This document shows positions 1,890 to 57,314 of a DNA stretch of 64,000 nucleotides, one piece after another; position 1 is the first letter of the stretch; every line of letters begins with the position of its first letter. The position numbers and the translations under genes were made by a program. The DNA comes from Tannerellaceae bacterium (lineage in GTDB: Bacteria; Bacteroidota; Bacteroidia; Bacteroidales; Tannerellaceae). Under the pieces are notes generated by a model, which was given only the letters and a program-made list of their open reading frames with translations, had not been told where the DNA came from and did not search any database. The DNA lies in the NCBI GenBank assembly GCA_021201295.1, contig JAJQFE010000003.1:62001-126000 (forward strand), in the 5' to 3' direction.

Positions 1890-3076
1890 ATGGTGAAAGT
1901 TCAGAAAACTACACGCATTGAAGCACTGGATATTTTCCGGGCACTTACGATGTTCTTTATGCTTTTTGTAAATGATATTCCCGGCCTGAAAAATATACCT
2001 CACTGGTTACTGCATGCTTCTTATCATGAAGACATGCTGGGATTTTCCGATACTATTTTTCCCGCTTTCCTGTTCGCCATGGGTATGGCTGTTCCCTATG
2101 CCATACAGAACAGATATAAAAAAGGCGATACTACCCTGGAAGTCGGGCTGCACATTTTCTGGCGTACGATTGCCCTTTTAGTGATGGGTGTATATACGGT
2201 GAACCGGGATACGATTGATCCGGTAGCTTTCGGCATGTCTATGCCTGTGTTTTCGTTATTGATGGTACTTGCCTTTTTCCTTATCTGGAGTGTGTATCCG
2301 AAGGTCAAAGGATTCAGAAGGCATCTTATCTCCCTGATGAAAATGATCGGTCTGCTGATACTGGCTTATCTGTTTTATATCTATGTGGGGATCAATGACA
2401 CTGCTTTTTCTCCTCAATGGTGGGGTATCCTGGGATTGATCGGATGGACCTATGTGGTATGTGCGGTGATTTTCCTGGTCACCCGGGAGAATCTACTTTT
2501 GAATACTTTTGCCCTTTTCCTGCTAATCATTGGTTCGGTGGTATCGGCACAGGGAATGTTTAAAGACTGGGGGGGGTAATGCATGTTATTCCCGGTGGAC
2601 CCACCTTGCATGCGTTTGGTATGGCTGGTTTGTGGGCAGGTCTGGTCATGCAGAAGCTTGCAGATAAACGCCGGCCGGGAAAATTCTTTACCGTGATGGG
2701 GGTGTGTGGAGTAATTATGTGGGTTGCTGCTATCGTTTCCCACCAGTATTGGATCATTTCCAAATTGCAGGCTACACCTACCTGGCTTTTCTACTGTTGC
2801 GCTATTTTCTTCCCTTTTTATGCGTTTATTTACTGGTTGATAGATGTCAGGGGAAAAAGCGGATGGTTTGTTCTGATTAAACCTGCGGGAACGGTGACAC
2901 TGACCTGTTATATTATTCCGTATGCCTGGTACAGTATTCAGTCTCTGCTGGGACTTCATTATCCGGCTTTCCTGCAATCCGGTGTTCCGGGATTGATCAG
3001 GTTACTGGTCTTTTCTTTTCTGGTCATTGGTGTAGCCTGGGTTTTGATGAAGTTACATATACGGTTGAAAGTCTGA
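1890..3076 (+). pseudogene. DUF5009 / HGSNAT-like membrane acyltransferase, frameshifted
   Basis: This is a polytopic inner-membrane protein of the DUF5009 family, related to heparan-alpha-glucosaminide N-acetyltransferase. It starts with the family-typical segment RIEALDIFRALTMFFMLFVN, and several hydrophobic helices follow. After 229 codons the frame runs through a G8 tract at 2569-2576 and stops at 2577-2579. The rest of the protein (IPGGPTLHAFGMAG onward, about 165 residues) continues in another frame to 3076. One extra G would restore a continuous protein of about 395 residues, so this is a one-base homopolymer deletion. No in-frame stops lie elsewhere, suggesting a recent lesion or a base-calling error. 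Confidence 0.85.
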
Positions 3077-4597: not shown

Positions 4598-6304
4598 TCA
4601 ATGCGGTTTAAAATAACCCAGGTCTTCCCGGTCAAAGCTGGTAATATAGGACTCAATCTTCTTAACCTCTGCCTGTGCGTAATTGATATATACTTCGGCA
4701 GAACGACGGAAGCTTTCATCCACAGTCGTATCCTGTAACAACAGGTGTCCTATCACACAATGAGCTGCCGCTTCTACCATCCGGCGGGCATGGAAATCAA
4801 TATATTCATTATCCCTGGTTTCCGTTACTAAGGTCACTACTTTCTCATATTGATCCGTCATAGTGATCAGTTTCTTTTTCAGGTCATCCAGTTCCGGTTT
4901 ATATGCCAGTCCTTCATATTCACGGATCTTTGCCAGATACGTGCCGGTGGTGACATGGCGGATCGCTGCTACTACCTGCAACTGGGTGGTTCCCTCATAG
5001 ATATTGGTAATACGTGCATCTCTGTAGAGACGCTCACAGGCATAATCTTTCATGAAGCCGGAACCACCGTGGATCTGGATCGTGTCATAGGTGTTCTGGT
5101 TGGCAAATTCAGTAGCCATCGCTTTACCGATAGGAGTAAAGGCATCGGCTAATTTAGCATACTTCTTCATCTCCTGACGCTCCTCCGGTGTCAGTTTACG
5201 TTCTTTGGAAATATCTTCCAGGGCTTTATAGATATCTACGAACCGGGCTGTCTCATACAACAGTGTACGGGATGCATCTGTTTTTGCACGGATCAGGGCA
5301 ATCATTTCATATACAGCCGGGAATTCAATAATGGCTTTACCAAACTGCTTCCGTTCGGTTGCATAGGAATAGGCTTCCCGGTAAGCTGATTCACTTAAGC
5401 CTACTGCCTGAGCAGTAATTCCTAAGCGGGCACTGTTCATCAGTACCATGACATATTTGATCAGCCCTAATTTCCGGTCTCCACATAATTCTGCCCTGGC
5501 ATTCCGGTAGACCAGTTCACAAGTGGGTGACCCTTTGATTCCTAATTTATTTTCAATGCGGCGAACGGTTACGCCACCATCTTTTTTATCATAAATGAAC
5601 ATGGACAGTCCACGTCCGTCACGGGTTCCTTCTTCTGAACGGGCCAGCACTAAGTGAATATCAGCGTCCCCGTTGGTAATAAACCGTTTGACACCATTCA
5701 GATACCAGTATCCGTCTGCTTCATTGTAGGTAGCTTTCAGCATAACCGACTGAAGGTCTGATCCTGCATCCGGTTCTGTTAAGTCCATAGACATGGTTTC
5801 ACCGTCACACACACGGGTAATAAACCGCTGGCGCTGATCTTCATTCCCAAACTCATATAATGTTTCAGCACAGTCCTGTAATCCCCACAGGTTTTCAAAC
5901 CCGGCATCGGCACGGGACACCAGGTCCGCTGCCATCATATAGGGGACAATAGGGAAATTCAGCCCATTATAGCGACGGGGTAACGCAATCCCCATCAGGC
6001 CGGCTTTACGCACGGCATCCAGGTTTTCCTGAGTACCTCTGGCATAGGTTACACGTCCGTCCGCAACGGTAGGTCCTTCGTGATCTACACTTTCGGCATT
6101 CGGTGCGATGATCTCACCACAAATTTTACCCACAATCTCTAATACTTTGTCATAGCTGTCCATCGCATCTTCAAAATCGATGGGAGCGTAGTCAAACTTA
6201 TCTTTATCCGTGTAATTGCGTTCTTTCAATTCCACAATACGCTTCATCAATGGATGATGCAGGTGGTGTTTCAAACTGGGATTATCTGTATAAAAATTAG
6301 CCAT
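4598..6304 (-). CDS. acyl-CoA dehydrogenase family protein
   Basis: A flavoprotein predicted to oxidise an acyl-CoA and pass electrons to the ETF encoded just upstream in the same direction. I chose the ATG at 6304 (MANFYTDNPSLKHH), giving 568 residues. A longer open frame exists, but its extra codons are merely translated repeat sequence. Diagnostic segments include LTEPDAGSDLQSV in the middle domain, KGSPTCELV, and a C-terminal domain with IHGGSGFMKDYACERLYRDA and ITNIYEGTTQLQ. The length is typical of the long Bacteroidales members with an extra C-terminal helical region. The gene is intact. It forms an etfB-etfA-acd cluster split by an S23 element immediately upstream of its start codon. 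The exact substrate is unknown. Confidence 0.9.
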   Translation of the reverse strand: MANFYTDNPSLKHHLHHPLMKRIVELKERNYTDKDKFDYAPIDFEDAMDSYDKVLEIVGKICGEIIAPNAESVDHEGPTVADGRVTYARGTQENLDAVRKAGLMGIALPRRYNGLNFPIVPYMMAADLVSRADAGFENLWGLQDCAETLYEFGNEDQRQRFITRVCDGETMSMDLTEPDAGSDLQSVMLKATYNEADGYWYLNGVKRFITNGDADIHLVLARSEEGTRDGRGLSMFIYDKKDGGVTVRRIENKLGIKGSPTCELVYRNARAELCGDRKLGLIKYVMVLMNSARLGITAQAVGLSESAYREAYSYATERKQFGKAIIEFPAVYEMIALIRAKTDASRTLLYETARFVDIYKALEDISKERKLTPEERQEMKKYAKLADAFTPIGKAMATEFANQNTYDTIQIHGGSGFMKDYACERLYRDARITNIYEGTTQLQVVAAIRHVTTGTYLAKIREYEGLAYKPELDDLKKKLITMTDQYEKVVTLVTETRDNEYIDFHARRMVEAAAHCVIGHLLLQDTTVDESFRRSAEVYINYAQAEVKKIESYITSFDREDLGYFKPH

Positions 6305-6768
6305 AATTTTAGGAGTTAAAGGAGTTAAGGAGTTAAAGGAGTTAAGTAGGTATATACTCTTCATGGTTATTGATCAGCCCTTTACAATATGCATTTAACA
6401 TCCTGCTTACTTCAGATGCCTGTTCATATAAATCTTCCTTATCTTCCATAGAAATATAACCTAAGTCTTTTGATAAGATAATGAAATTGCGGGTTTCTTC
6501 CAATAAACCTTGCAAAATGTTGTAGAAACGTAACTTTTCTTTTATTCCGATCCGGATATATCCCTCTGCAATATTTACTGTGACAGAGATAGCTGCACGT
6601 CTCATCTGATTGACCAGGAAAAATATCTCATCTTTGGGATATGATCTGGTAATCCGGTAGATGGAAAGAACATATGGATGTGCTTTCTGCCATACAACTA
6701 ATTGTTCGAAGGATTGAGTGGACATTTCTACTTGACTACTTAACTTCTTTGACTACTTTAACTACTGT
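6305..6768. mobile_element. IVS-like inverted-repeat element carrying an S23 four-helix-bundle gene, copy B
   Basis: Arms built from 8-9 base units (GGAGTTAAA, GGAGTTAAG, GTAG) at about 6310-6350 are mirrored by TTGACTACT/TTAACTACT units at about 6728-6766. Between them lies a single S23-like gene, and its last codons overlap the left arm. The right end abuts the etfA stop codon. This is the layout of 23S rRNA intervening sequences (complementary ends flanking an S23 gene), but here it sits between etfA and the acyl-CoA dehydrogenase gene. Mobility is inferred from the other repeat copies in the window, not shown. Confidence 0.7.
6342..6725 (-). CDS. S23-type four-helix-bundle protein
   Basis: A 127-residue protein of the S23/four-helix-bundle family, first known from open frames inside 23S rRNA intervening sequences. 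Family marks are the N-terminal FEQLVVWQKAHPYVLSIYRI helix, SYPKDEIFFLVNQMRRAAIS, the near-invariant NIAEGY segment, and a third and fourth helix ending EVSRMLNAYCKGL. The start is ATG 6725 (MSTQSFEQL). The final codons (EEYIPT and stop) are encoded by the repeat arm. Relatives form pentameric bundles thought to bind nucleic acid; Avd of diversity-generating retroelements has the same fold. The role outside rRNA is unknown. The gene is intact despite widespread damage nearby. Confidence 0.85.
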   Translation of the reverse strand: MSTQSFEQLVVWQKAHPYVLSIYRITRSYPKDEIFFLVNQMRRAAISVTVNIAEGYIRIGIKEKLRFYNILQGLLEETRNFIILSKDLGYISMEDKEDLYEQASEVSRMLNAYCKGLINNHEEYIPT

Positions 6769-7788
6769 TTATTTCGTATTCTTCTTATAATACCTGATCA
6801 TCTTGGGAAGTACCTCTTCAACCGTACCGGTGATGACATAATCTGCGATGGTATTGATCGGAGCCATCGGATCATTGTTTACGGAGATAATGATGAAACT
6901 TTCCTGCATACCTGCCATGTGCTGGATCTGTCCGGAGATCCCGCAGGCAATATAGAGTTTAGGACGAACGGTTATCCCGGTTTGTCCGATCTGTCTTTCA
7001 TGTTCCGTGAAACCGGCATCCACTGCCGCACGGGAACCACCTACTTCGGCGCCAATTACGGCTGCCAGGTCATGCAATAACCGGAAGTTTTCTTTAGATC
7101 CTACTCCGTAGCCTCCTGCCACGATGATAGACGCGCCTTTTATATTGGTTTTACTTTTCTCCATCTGGCGGTCGATCACGCTGACTGCAAAATCGGTAGC
7201 ACTTACATATAGATTGACATCATATGTTTTGGTTTCTCCCGTGTAGTTTGCATCCAATATTTCTTTTTTCATCACCCCTTCACGAACAGTCGCCATCTGG
7301 GGACGGCATTCCGGATTGATAATCGTGGCTACAATATTACCACCAAATGCCGGACGGATCTGGTAAAGCAGATCTGTGTAGGTTTTATTTTCTCTTTTTT
7401 CTTCGTGGTTGCCAATTTTCAGGGACGTACAGTCTGCCGTTAACCCACTAAACAAGGCGGAAGAGACACGAGGCCCTAAATCACGTCCGATGCTGGTAGC
7501 ACCCATGAGGGCGATCTGCGGTTTTTCCTCCCGGAATAGTTTAATCAGTACTGCGGTGTGCGGCAAGGTGGTATAGGGATACAAACGGGCATCATCAAAC
7601 AGGTGCAGGACATCTACCCCGTAAGGGAATACCTGTGCCCCGATACCTCCCAGTTCATGGCCGATAGCCACTGCTTCCAGTTTACATCCTAATGTGGTCG
7701 CTAATGAACGTCCTTTGGTCAATAACTCCAGACTCACATCGGCTACTATGCCATCTTCAATTTCGCAATATACAAATAGATTGTTCAT
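6769..7788 (-). CDS. etfA: electron transfer flavoprotein subunit alpha
   Basis: A 339-residue alpha subunit of the heterodimeric electron transfer flavoprotein, which accepts electrons from acyl-CoA dehydrogenases. The C-terminal FAD domain is recognisable: VAGGYGVGSKENF, GGSRAAVDAG, QIGQTGITVRPKLYIACGISG and QHMAGMQ, followed by NNDPMAPI. The start MNNLFVYCE at 7788 is the only sensible one. It lies downstream of etfB, separated by an inverted-repeat element, and upstream of the S23 element and the acyl-CoA dehydrogenase gene, so the three enzymes are probably co-transcribed. Intact. Confidence 0.93.
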   Translation of the reverse strand: MNNLFVYCEIEDGIVADVSLELLTKGRSLATTLGCKLEAVAIGHELGGIGAQVFPYGVDVLHLFDDARLYPYTTLPHTAVLIKLFREEKPQIALMGATSIGRDLGPRVSSALFSGLTADCTSLKIGNHEEKRENKTYTDLLYQIRPAFGGNIVATIINPECRPQMATVREGVMKKEILDANYTGETKTYDVNLYVSATDFAVSVIDRQMEKSKTNIKGASIIVAGGYGVGSKENFRLLHDLAAVIGAEVGGSRAAVDAGFTEHERQIGQTGITVRPKLYIACGISGQIQHMAGMQESFIIISVNNDPMAPINTIADYVITGTVEEVLPKMIRYYKKNTK

Positions 7789-7797
7789 AATTGTTTG

Positions 7798-7875
7798 AGT
7801 AGTTAAAGGAGTTAAGGAGTTAAAGGAGTTAAGTAGTTCTACTGGCTACCTGACTTCTTTAACTCCTTGACTACT
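7798..7875. repeat. GGAGTTAA-family inverted-repeat element, copy C (no gene)
   Basis: The left part has GTAGTTAAAGGAGTTAAGGA and further GGAGTTAAA/GTAG units. The right part reads TGACTTCTTTAACTCCTTGA then CTACT, an imperfect inverted repeat with a short TTCTACTGGC loop. It occupies nearly the whole etfB-etfA spacer and begins next to the etfB stop codon. As RNA it would form a strong hairpin between the two subunit cistrons. It lacks the CTAAGGAGCRAAGCGACTGC core of copies A, D, E and F. Confidence 0.8.
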
Positions 7876-23090: not shown

Positions 23091-24065
23091 ATGAAAACAC
23101 TTACAATTATAGTGCCCTGCTATAATGAAGAAGCCGTGATTACGGAATCCTATCGCCGGACTAAACAAGTCATACAACAACTGCCCAACCAGACTGAAAT
23201 TATTTATATCAATGATGGAAGCCAGGACAATACCCGGCTATTGTTAAATGAGATAGCAGCGCAGGACCCGCAGGTAAAAGTCCTCCATTTCTCCCGTAAT
23301 TTTGGTCATCAACCTGCCGTAACAGCCGGAATTCACCACTGTACAACCGATTTGGCAATCATTATTGATGCCGATATGCAGGATCCTCCTGAATTGATTC
23401 CGGACTTATTGGAATTGCAGGAACAGGAACAGGCTAATGTGGTCTATTGTGTTCGCAAATCCCGCGACGGGGAAAGCTTCTTTAAACTGCTTTCCGCCAA
23501 ACTTTTTTACCGGGTGATGAACTCCATGAGTGAAGTCAGTTTTCCCCTGGACACAGGAGACTTTCGCCTGATAGACCGGAAAGTCATGGATGAATTTGAC
23601 CGCCTCAAAGAACGGGGTAAATATATCCGCGGACTGATTAGCTGGCTTGGATTTAAACAGGTTCCCTTCTATTATGAACGGGAAGCAAGAATTGCAGGCG
23701 AAACCAAGTACCCGTTAAGTAAAATGTTTAAGTTTGCCTCTAACGCTTTACTCTACTTCTCCAAAAAACCATTGAAACTGGCTATGAGTATGGGATTCAC
23801 CGCCGTAGTCGTGGGAATTATTCTGGCCATCTGGTTCATCTTAGGTAAAATCTACGGTTTCACCAATGCAGATTCCGGATGGACCTCCATTATCATAGCC
23901 GTGATCTTCTTTGGAGGTGTCCAACTCATTACAGTCGGCGTATTAGGCCAATATATCGGTATCCTTTTCGACGAGATCAAAGCCCGCCCGGAGTACGTGA
24001 TTGAGGAAAAGAAGGGAATAGAGGAGTTAAAGGAGTTAAGGAGTCAAGTAGAAAGATTTGTGTAG
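23091..24065 (+). CDS. GT2 family glycosyltransferase (GtrB/DPM1-like)
   Basis: A 324-residue membrane-anchored glycosyltransferase that likely transfers a hexose to undecaprenyl phosphate. The nucleotide-sugar binding domain shows IIVPCYNEEAVI, YINDGSQDNT and the metal motif DADMQDPPELI. Two C-terminal transmembrane helices follow (SMGFTAVVVGIILAIWFILG and the ITVGVLGQYIGIL region). The gene appears normal up to RPEYVIEEKKGI. The last 14 residues (EELKELRSQVERFV) are encoded by a GGAGTTAA-type repeat that has replaced the native 3' end. Works with the adjacent GtrA. Confidence 0.9.
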   Translation: MKTLTIIVPCYNEEAVITESYRRTKQVIQQLPNQTEIIYINDGSQDNTRLLLNEIAAQDPQVKVLHFSRNFGHQPAVTAGIHHCTTDLAIIIDADMQDPPELIPDLLELQEQEQANVVYCVRKSRDGESFFKLLSAKLFYRVMNSMSEVSFPLDTGDFRLIDRKVMDEFDRLKERGKYIRGLISWLGFKQVPFYYEREARIAGETKYPLSKMFKFASNALLYFSKKPLKLAMSMGFTAVVVGIILAIWFILGKIYGFTNADSGWTSIIIAVIFFGGVQLITVGVLGQYIGILFDEIKARPEYVIEEKKGIEELKELRSQVERFV

Positions 24066-24154
24066 ATATTATGCTATATATTCTTTATTCTACTTAACTA
24101 CTTTAACTCCTTGACTCCTTTAACTCCTAAGGAGCGAAGCGACTGCTAACTCCT
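24021..24154. repeat. GGAGTTAA-family inverted-repeat element, copy D, fused to a gene end
   Basis: The left arm GAGGAGTTAAAGGAGTTAAG lies inside the glycosyltransferase gene and supplies its last 14 codons and stop. The centre TATATATTCTTTATTCTACT matches copy A. The right arm has TTAACTACTTTAACTCCTTG, then ACTCCTAAGGAGCGAAGCGA and CTGCTAACTCCT. The right end abuts the 3' end of the convergent msrA pseudogene. Confidence 0.85.
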
Positions 24155-43934: not shown

Positions 43935-44552
43935 ATGGAAGGAATAAAGAATCTCATTCTGGATTTTGGCGGCGTGATCATCAACCTGACCTGCAACCGC
44001 TGTATCGAAGCATTTGAGCAGTTGGGTGTGGCGGATATCCGGGAGCTGATCACGAATAATTACCAGCATAAAGATTTGTTTATGCAACTGGAGCTGGGCA
44101 CGCTGACGATGGCTGAGTTTCATGACGGCATACGGCATTTGTCCCAACAATCTTTCTCTGATGAGGAGATTGACCAGGCCTGGATCCTGATGCTGGATGA
44201 TATTCCTGCTGCCAAACTGGACCTGCTGTTGGCTTTACAGAAAAAATATAAGGTCTTTTTGCTCAGTAATACGAATGAGATCCACTGGAAGTGGGCGGAA
44301 GCGAATTGCTTCCATTACAAGGGACACCACGCCAGGGACTTTTTTAATGAGATCTATCTGTCCTATGAGTTAAACATGCTGAAACCTAATGCGGATATTT
44401 TTGAATATGTACTCCGTGATGCCGCTATCCTTCCGGAAGAAACATTATTCATAGATGATGCACTGGTGAATTGCCGTACGGCAGAATCTTTAGGAATCCG
44501 GAGTTATGCTCCTGAACCACGGGAAGACTGGTCGCATCTCTTTCTTTTATAG
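43935..44552 (+). CDS. HAD-superfamily hydrolase (YihX-like)
   Basis: A 205-residue HAD subfamily IA phosphatase. Motif I is LILDFGGVIINL, in the YihX-like variant where the second Asp is replaced by Gly. Motif II is FLLSNTNEIHWKWA, motif III lies in YELNMLKPNADIFEY, and motif IV is FIDDALVN. An alpha-helical cap lies between motifs I and II. YihX relatives remove phosphate from sugar phosphates such as glucose-1-phosphate; the substrate here is unknown. The stop codon TAG is formed by the first bases of an adjoining palindromic repeat. Intact. Confidence 0.88.
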   Translation: MEGIKNLILDFGGVIINLTCNRCIEAFEQLGVADIRELITNNYQHKDLFMQLELGTLTMAEFHDGIRHLSQQSFSDEEIDQAWILMLDDIPAAKLDLLLALQKKYKVFLLSNTNEIHWKWAEANCFHYKGHHARDFFNEIYLSYELNMLKPNADIFEYVLRDAAILPEETLFIDDALVNCRTAESLGIRSYAPEPREDWSHLFLL

Positions 44553-44619
44553 TAGTCAGAGGAGTTAGCAGGCACTTCACTCCTAAGGAGCAAAGCGACT
44601 GCTAACTCCTCTGACTACT
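44551..44619. repeat. GGAGTTAA-family element, copy E, minimal palindromic form
   Basis: AGTAGTCAGAGGAGTTAGCA plus G (44551-44571) is a perfect 21-bp inverted match to 44599-44619. The loop contains the nested palindrome CTCCTAAGGAG and the family core GGAGCAAAGCGACTGC. It provides the TAG stop of the HAD gene and lies between two convergent genes, where it could also act as a bidirectional terminator. Confidence 0.9.
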
Positions 44620-57228: not shown

Positions 57229-57314
57229 AGAAGTCAGAGGAGTCAGAGAATCAGGAAATATAAAATCTACTTAACTCCTAAGAAGCGGAGCGACTGATAA
57301 CTTCTTTAACTACT
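57229..57314. repeat. GGAGTTAA-family element, copy F, degenerate
   Basis: It begins 3 bases after the TolC stop. The left arm is AGAAGTCAGAGGAGTCAGAG. The right part is CTACTTAACTCCTAAGAAGC, then GGAGCGACTGATAACTTC and TTTAACTACT. The core differs from copies A, D and E at a few bases. It occupies most of the tolC-hlyD spacer. Confidence 0.75.

Follow-up and report, generated by a model that had tools for sequence, protein, structure and literature searches.

Inverted heptamer arms around S23 genes suggest an overlooked gene-plus-repeat mobile system in bacterial operons

Bacterial genes of the S23 family are commonly enclosed by inverted arms made of tandem 7-nt words, and this arrangement is a general pattern, found at S23 loci of one bacterial family and across phyla. 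In an etf operon of a Tannerellaceae bacterium the arms of the only S23 gene recur throughout the genome as gene-less hairpins. Across loci, the arms vary together with the lineage of the S23 protein that they flank. We interpret gene and arms as a heritable, transferable unit riding in operons, in which S23 would act in trans on its own heptamer arms and the hairpins would be non-autonomous kin, a reading to which we give about an even chance of being correct. The sequences suggest a gene-plus-repeat mobile system that has been overlooked so far.

An S23 gene between inverted arms in an etf operon

The window, a stretch of 64,000 nucleotides (contig JAJQFE010000003.1, positions 62,001 to 126,000), encodes a four-helix-bundle protein of 127 aa (6342-6725, minus strand). 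As evidenced by full-length profile matches above the curated cut-offs for PF05635 (E 3.3e-32, 111.3 bits, cut-off 33.8) and TIGR02436 (E 7.8e-30, 103.3 bits, cut-off 24), the protein belongs to the S23 family, and the S23 profile A1 matched the solved structure 2gsc in the PDB at 8.5e-36. Searching the genome with PF05635 returned this single S23 gene. It is inserted between etfA on its upstream side (6769-7788, minus strand; PF00766, PF01012) and a gene for an acyl-CoA dehydrogenase, acd, on its downstream side (4598-6304, minus strand; PF00441, PF02770, PF12186), all three genes lying on one strand.

The arms that enclose the gene are inverted arrays of G[GT]AGT[TC]A(A) units. The acd-side arm (GGAGTTAAAGGAGTTAAGGAGTTAAAGGAGTTA at 6312-6345, plus strand) is composed of GGAGTTAAA/GGAGTTAA units and includes the S23 stop codon. 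On the etfA side the arm (TGACTACTTAACTTCTTTGACTACTTTAACTAC at 6733-6766) is filled by the complements of the GGAGTTAA-type units and begins 3 nt off the etfA stop codon. A first-pass annotation of the window had described an S23 gene with an arm on either side as one unit between etfA and acd, and this observation is confirmed. With the 17-mer GGAGTTAAAGGAGTTAA from the arm we obtained 92 matches genome-wide at up to 2 mismatches, compared with 0 for the reversed control; within the window there were 13 matches at up to 3 mismatches where 0.27 were expected. An Rfam scan of the window gave no match.

Gene-less hairpins built from the same units

About 45 dispersed elements consist of the same units as the S23 arms in the window. 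Most are gene-less and 70-150 bp long. The unit clusters that we delimited genome-wide number 46, with a plus-then-minus arrangement of the arms in 38, and they bear out the annotation's proposal of gene-less kin elsewhere in the genome. Within the window, one such hairpin occupies the etfB-etfA spacer (7799-7875) and is absent in the related genome G024. Others lie at 1727-1856 (with a branch hairpin), at 24023-24128, at 57230-57314 and, between convergent genes, at 44552-44619. A repeat that flanks the gene and is also dispersed as gene-less inverted pairs, as in RAYT/REPIN systems, is thus present here, and the elements of G022 show the same.

A branch hairpin with a GCRRAGCG core lies in one arm of 23 of the 46 clusters. 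Branch hairpins of the AGGAGCGAAGCGACTGATAA type, nested in one arm of half the elements (e.g. 1727-1856), are common to several species and were also seen in the spacers of G016, G019 and G037. Elsewhere in the window, the consecutive open reading frames 1890-2579 and 2579-3076 resemble one membrane protein gene (1890-3076) broken by a stop codon or frameshift.

Between co-directional genes, the hairpins are located at a median of 5 nt past the upstream stop codon and 27 nt before the downstream start. Most are closer to the stop than to the start (30 of 35, p = 8e-5), and 10 of the 35 overlap or abut the stop codon, in agreement with the preference for gene 3' ends that the annotation had assumed. 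The neighbours of the gene-less hairpins are co-directional in 35 of 41 cases, no significant excess over the base rate of 31 of 42 in the window (p = 0.28), and some of the hairpins lie between convergent genes.

Filled and empty sites at the etf spacers

Presence or absence of hairpins between genomes was judged at the two etf spacers. The annotation had called for a search for empty orthologous sites, and had taken a spacer fixed in all relatives as speaking against its reading. Empty sites were found. Among the 30 genomes of the family that were compared, the etfA-acd spacer is mostly 4-18 nt long, including the empty spacer TAAGTTATG of the closest relative, G024, which belongs to the same genus and whose EtfA is 93% identical to that of the window. 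The spacer measures about 460-570 nt and holds an S23 gene in G000, G016, G036, G026, G037 and G065; S23 is also present at this site in G078, G089, G097 and G119. Similarly, the etfB-etfA spacer contains gene-less hairpins in some genomes and none in others, and filled and empty states coexist within one genus. Comparison of filled and empty etf spacers by eye revealed no constant target-site duplication. The flanks are A+T-rich, with A at position -1 in 96%.

In the S23 tree the proteins from the etf site form essentially one clade. The sole member without an etf label is L140 of G006, which has acd directly downstream and decayed arms; we infer its site, as the etfA contig of G006 stops short of the junction. 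Because these proteins form essentially one clade, the data point to one old insertion that was kept vertically and cleanly lost many times, not to recent jumping. Where dS was measurable, dN/dS of S23 ranged from 0.07 to 0.17, which indicates purifying selection.

A few individual loci stand out. In L046 (G078) the S23 frame continues without a stop into acd, giving an open frame of 709 aa and possibly a natural fusion. The etfA-acd spacer at L090 (G088) contains a different small open reading frame and no obvious heptamer arms. L034 and L037 are decaying S23 copies with one in-frame stop codon each; the arms of L037 are still recognisable.

Arms are a general pattern at S23 loci

We gathered 90 S23-family loci in the bacterial family, 87 non-Avd and 3 Avd-like. 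To score arms, the upstream flank was compared with the downstream flank in reverse complement; the highest local match gave the score, and loci scoring at least 15 were regarded as arm-bearing. This applied to 78 of the 87 non-Avd loci. Own flanks in the family reached a mean score of 23.1 compared with 9.4 for mismatched loci, and control flanks of etfA genes averaged 8.8, the only high value being the window locus itself. The three Avd-like loci scored 8-10 and showed no heptamer arms. A second set covered Bacteroidota, Clostridia, Planctomycetes, Chloroflexi, Acidobacteria, Proteobacteria, Omnitrophica, candidate phyla and others. Here 46 of 79 S23 loci scored at least 15, compared with 1.25% of mismatched pairs, leaving about 42% of these loci without clear arms. 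In both sets, self-identity of the arms peaks at lags of 7, 14, 21 and 28 nt. The annotation had named standalone S23 genes without arm repeats in other genomes as an outcome against its reading; instead, arms are present in other genomes, and their sequences differ.

The position of the unit is also recurrent. Where S23 has a neighbour on each side, both of them share its strand at 58 of 71 family loci and at 55 of 63 cross-phyla loci, and the gaps of about 50-80 nt between S23 and its neighbours consist largely of arms. Copy numbers of the unit vary from 0 to 17 between genomes. None of 20 non-Bacteroidota loci scanned with Rfam was located in rRNA. S23 genes on cyanobacterial plasmids likewise have arms (own score 16.6 against 9.0), with heptamers such as GGGAGTA, GGGTGTA and GGGAACA. 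S23 units were observed inside CRISPR operons in Anabaena sp. 90 (pANA02, L393), Pseudanabaena galeata (L397) and Picosynechococcus PCC 7003 (L395), with the gene order cas6-S23-cas4 twice and cas10-S23-cmr3 once. In addition, 29 IMG/VR contigs (L289-L317) encode S23 relatives.

Arm words follow the S23 lineage

Across pairs of loci, arm similarity climbs with S23 protein identity (Mantel rho 0.48, 0 of 500 permutations). Near-identical S23 genes can have common arms through descent. Restricted to non-homologous sites, with a homology filter on the flanks that relied on short contigs for some loci, arm similarity is 0.17 at 20-40% S23 identity, 0.38 at 60-70% and 0.51 above 70%. Paralogues within one genome have different arms, their similarity of 0.203 being close to the 0.182 of protein pairs of equal identity across genomes. 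The co-variation is carried by K-type S23 (52 loci, rho 0.38, 0 of 500). Within the W-type, which includes the window gene, it is not significant (rho 0.05) when only non-homologous sites, which offer few close pairs, are considered. A repeat of its own for each gene lineage, as known for RAYT/REPIN, is hence seen over all 78 loci and in the K-type alone, not in the W-type alone.

Two of three tested arm words are almost confined to their own genome. GGTAGAGGGTAGAG occurs in 93 copies in its genome G022 and in 2 elsewhere, both in one other genome, and GAGTTACGAGTTAC in 56 copies in its genome G050 and at most 5 elsewhere. The third, TTTCAGA from the arm of L051, is at most weakly dispersed in its own genome G100, with 4 matches, and is commoner in G046. 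Some heptamer arrays, as in G022, are one-sided and long. GKAGTYA repeats reach a median of 51 in the 10 genomes counted as carrying an etf-spacer S23 gene; the median of the other 110 genomes is 1 (p = 5e-7). These 110 include G006, whose decayed copy at the etf site was recognised later. At least 10 such repeats are found in 13 genomes without a scored etf-site S23 (e.g. G112, G073, G024), several of which are incomplete or have other S23 genes. Overall, the interpretation in the annotation is partly supported; the cognacy of the arms to the S23 lineage and the generality of the pattern are points that it missed.

Alternative explanations for the arms

GTAG-type hairpins in this genome could be moved by a RAYT/TnpA-REP-type HUH transposase whose gene lies elsewhere, S23 being a passenger caught between two of them. 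The arms do resemble GTAG-tagged REPs in their first and last letters, GTAG and CTAC, and also in sometimes supplying stop codons (PMC3733652). However, the GTAG tag is missing from most S23 arms elsewhere (TTGAAAG, AATTACG, GGGAGTA, GGTAGAG), which nevertheless follow the S23 lineage, and a passenger role leaves the arms at most S23 loci of many phyla unexplained. We consider this explanation unlikely, though a serious candidate for the GTAG-type hairpins of this genome.

The annotation itself had favoured an mRNA counterpart of the intervening sequences (IVSs) of 23S rRNA, whose arms would pair in the transcript to form a stem; RNase III would cut this stem and thereby excise the S23 RNA or process the polycistron. 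The IVSs of 23S rRNA encode S23, and in the Coxiella IVS tandem GACAGAT heptamers stand just upstream of S23p (PMC4990558). S23 genes are oriented in sense in operons, and when the 464-nt sense RNA is folded in silico, the arms of the window unit are joined by 26 pairs. Against this, the unit lies between etfA and acd and not within a 23S rRNA gene, and gene-less hairpins occur between convergent genes as well. Moreover, the arm duplex of the window copy is imperfect: its sense strand reaches -20.1 kcal/mol (mononucleotide shuffles -10.3 +/- 2.9), far short of the -32.0 kcal/mol of the antisense strand. Over 30 gene-less elements the sense hairpins are no more stable, antisense being better by a mean of 2.2 kcal/mol (p = 0.02), and the 124 arm pairs flanking S23 genes have no excess of G-U pairs on the sense strand (78 vs 89 in the family, 33 vs 54 across phyla). 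Since neither stability nor G-U pairing favours the sense strand, the inverted arrangement does not appear to be kept by selection at the transcript level, which argues for a role at the DNA level. A stem processed from mRNA is not borne out by these results and appears rather improbable.

We find it just as improbable that S23 is a domesticated regulator, one that adjusts termination or mRNA decay by binding to heptamer hairpins at the 3' ends of genes, its spread being incidental. The location of the hairpins, the purifying selection on S23 and the inheritance of the etf-site genes as essentially one clade would all suit a regulator. The repeated loss of the unit and its widely varying copy number do not, nor does the missing sense-strand signature of RNA function.

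Finally, ordinary microsatellites born by slippage, which S23 genes tolerate or happen to adjoin, are a very improbable source of the arms. An excess of heptameric repeats is known from many bacteria, with slippage as a proposed origin (PMC4692102), and some arrays are one-sided and long (G022). Slippage, however, yields direct arrays and not matched inverted arms round one gene family (own 23.1, mismatched 9.4). The control flanks of etfA score only 8.8, and the arms follow the S23 lineage across unrelated sites.

Discussion

Anatomy, dispersal, variable presence between genomes, coding constraint on S23 and lineage-specific words are direct observations; recognition of the word by S23 and the way in which the elements spread are deduced from them. 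The operon-riding unit proposed here would consist of a left arm, a promoterless S23 gene and a right arm, the arms being inverted arrays of 7 (7-9) nt words. It would ride host operons in sense orientation and, judging from this position, be expressed by read-through of host transcription. S23 itself is probably oligomeric, as is the solved pentamer 2GSC, and its most likely role is to recognise the word of its own arms, either as DNA or as RNA. In this way it may help to maintain or copy the units, together with their putative non-autonomous kin, the gene-less hairpins found where genes end. To our knowledge, S23 has no catalytic activity; the catalytic step would come from the host, by replication over the hairpin, by repair, or by a nuclease or transposase acting in trans.

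The fold of S23 proteins is known and their function is not; the heptamer excess of bacteria likewise stands without a mechanism (PMC4692102, PMC4679880). Should S23 and heptamers prove to belong together in a single system, both puzzles would become directly testable, and the unit would be a second, unrelated case of a single-copy gene with dispersed hairpins, as in RAYT/REPIN. The rRNA IVSs would then fall within a larger family. For annotation, four helix bundle proteins in etf, cas and other operons would have to be read as insertions and not as operon components. A much broader claim, tentative and on balance doubtful, is that S23 proteins are the long-missing cause of bacterial tandem heptanucleotide repeats. 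Operon-riding elements would then be a widespread class, so far without a name, each pairing a small non-catalytic protein with the cognate 7-nt word that spreads alongside it, and rRNA IVSs would be one special case.

Comparison with known systems

Like MITEs, the short gene-less inverted-repeat elements are akin to a gene-bearing unit, but neither a transposase nor a target-site duplication was identified for the S23 unit. The accessory protein Avd (bAvd) of diversity-generating retroelements (DGRs) shares the fold superfamily, and the window protein weakly matches the bAvd and Avd models. However, the Avd match of 33 bits is far under the cut-off of 80, the neighbours are etf and acd genes, and the three Avd-like loci of the family have no heptamer arms; we therefore reject membership in a DGR.

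The known heptanucleotide repeats (TAACTGA in Beggiatoaceae, GGGAATC in Xanthomonas, GGGGAYT in Nostoc) are, like the S23 arms, intergenic tandem 7-mers with genome-specific words (PMC4679880, PMC4692102). Heptamer repeats are over-represented in many bacteria, with no known cause or mechanism (PMC4692102, PMC4679880). Among the open-licence papers retrieved, no link between heptamer repeats and S23 came up, the nearest being the Coxiella IVS paper and papers on heptamer repeats that do not treat S23. TAACTGA arrays are present in 26 of 395 Bacteroidota genomes, and 21 of these 26 have S23 compared with 279 of 395 overall (Fisher p = 0.27); only two arrays adjoin an S23 gene, both one-sided. 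Within Bacteroidota, a link between TAACTGA and S23 is thus not established.

With the 23S rRNA IVS the unit shares the protein family and a gene placed between complementary arms. In Coxiella, S23p is directly preceded by tandem GACAGAT heptamers (PMC4990558), which fits the rule that S23 genes are accompanied by heptamers. In contrast to the IVS, the unit stands between protein genes, gives no indication that pairing of the RNA is selected for and has many gene-less relatives in the same genome.

The closest likeness is to RAYT (TnpA-REP) genes with their REPs and REPINs. There, too, the gene is often single-copy, vertically inherited and bordered by a repeat of its own, which also occurs elsewhere in many inverted pairs without the gene. 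The repeats prefer the 3' ends of genes and differ between paralogues of the same genome (PMC3116915, PMC3733652). The protein differs, an S23-family four-helix bundle standing in place of the Y1 HUH transposase with its HUH and Y motifs, as does the repeat, a tandem heptamer array in place of one 20-25 nt palindrome. S23 genes furthermore lie in operons, with arms directly at both sides. Because the protein is unrelated, the S23 unit falls outside the RAYT/REPIN family even though the logic is alike. The best explanation by analogy is that the S23 unit works like RAYT/REPIN with an unrelated protein.
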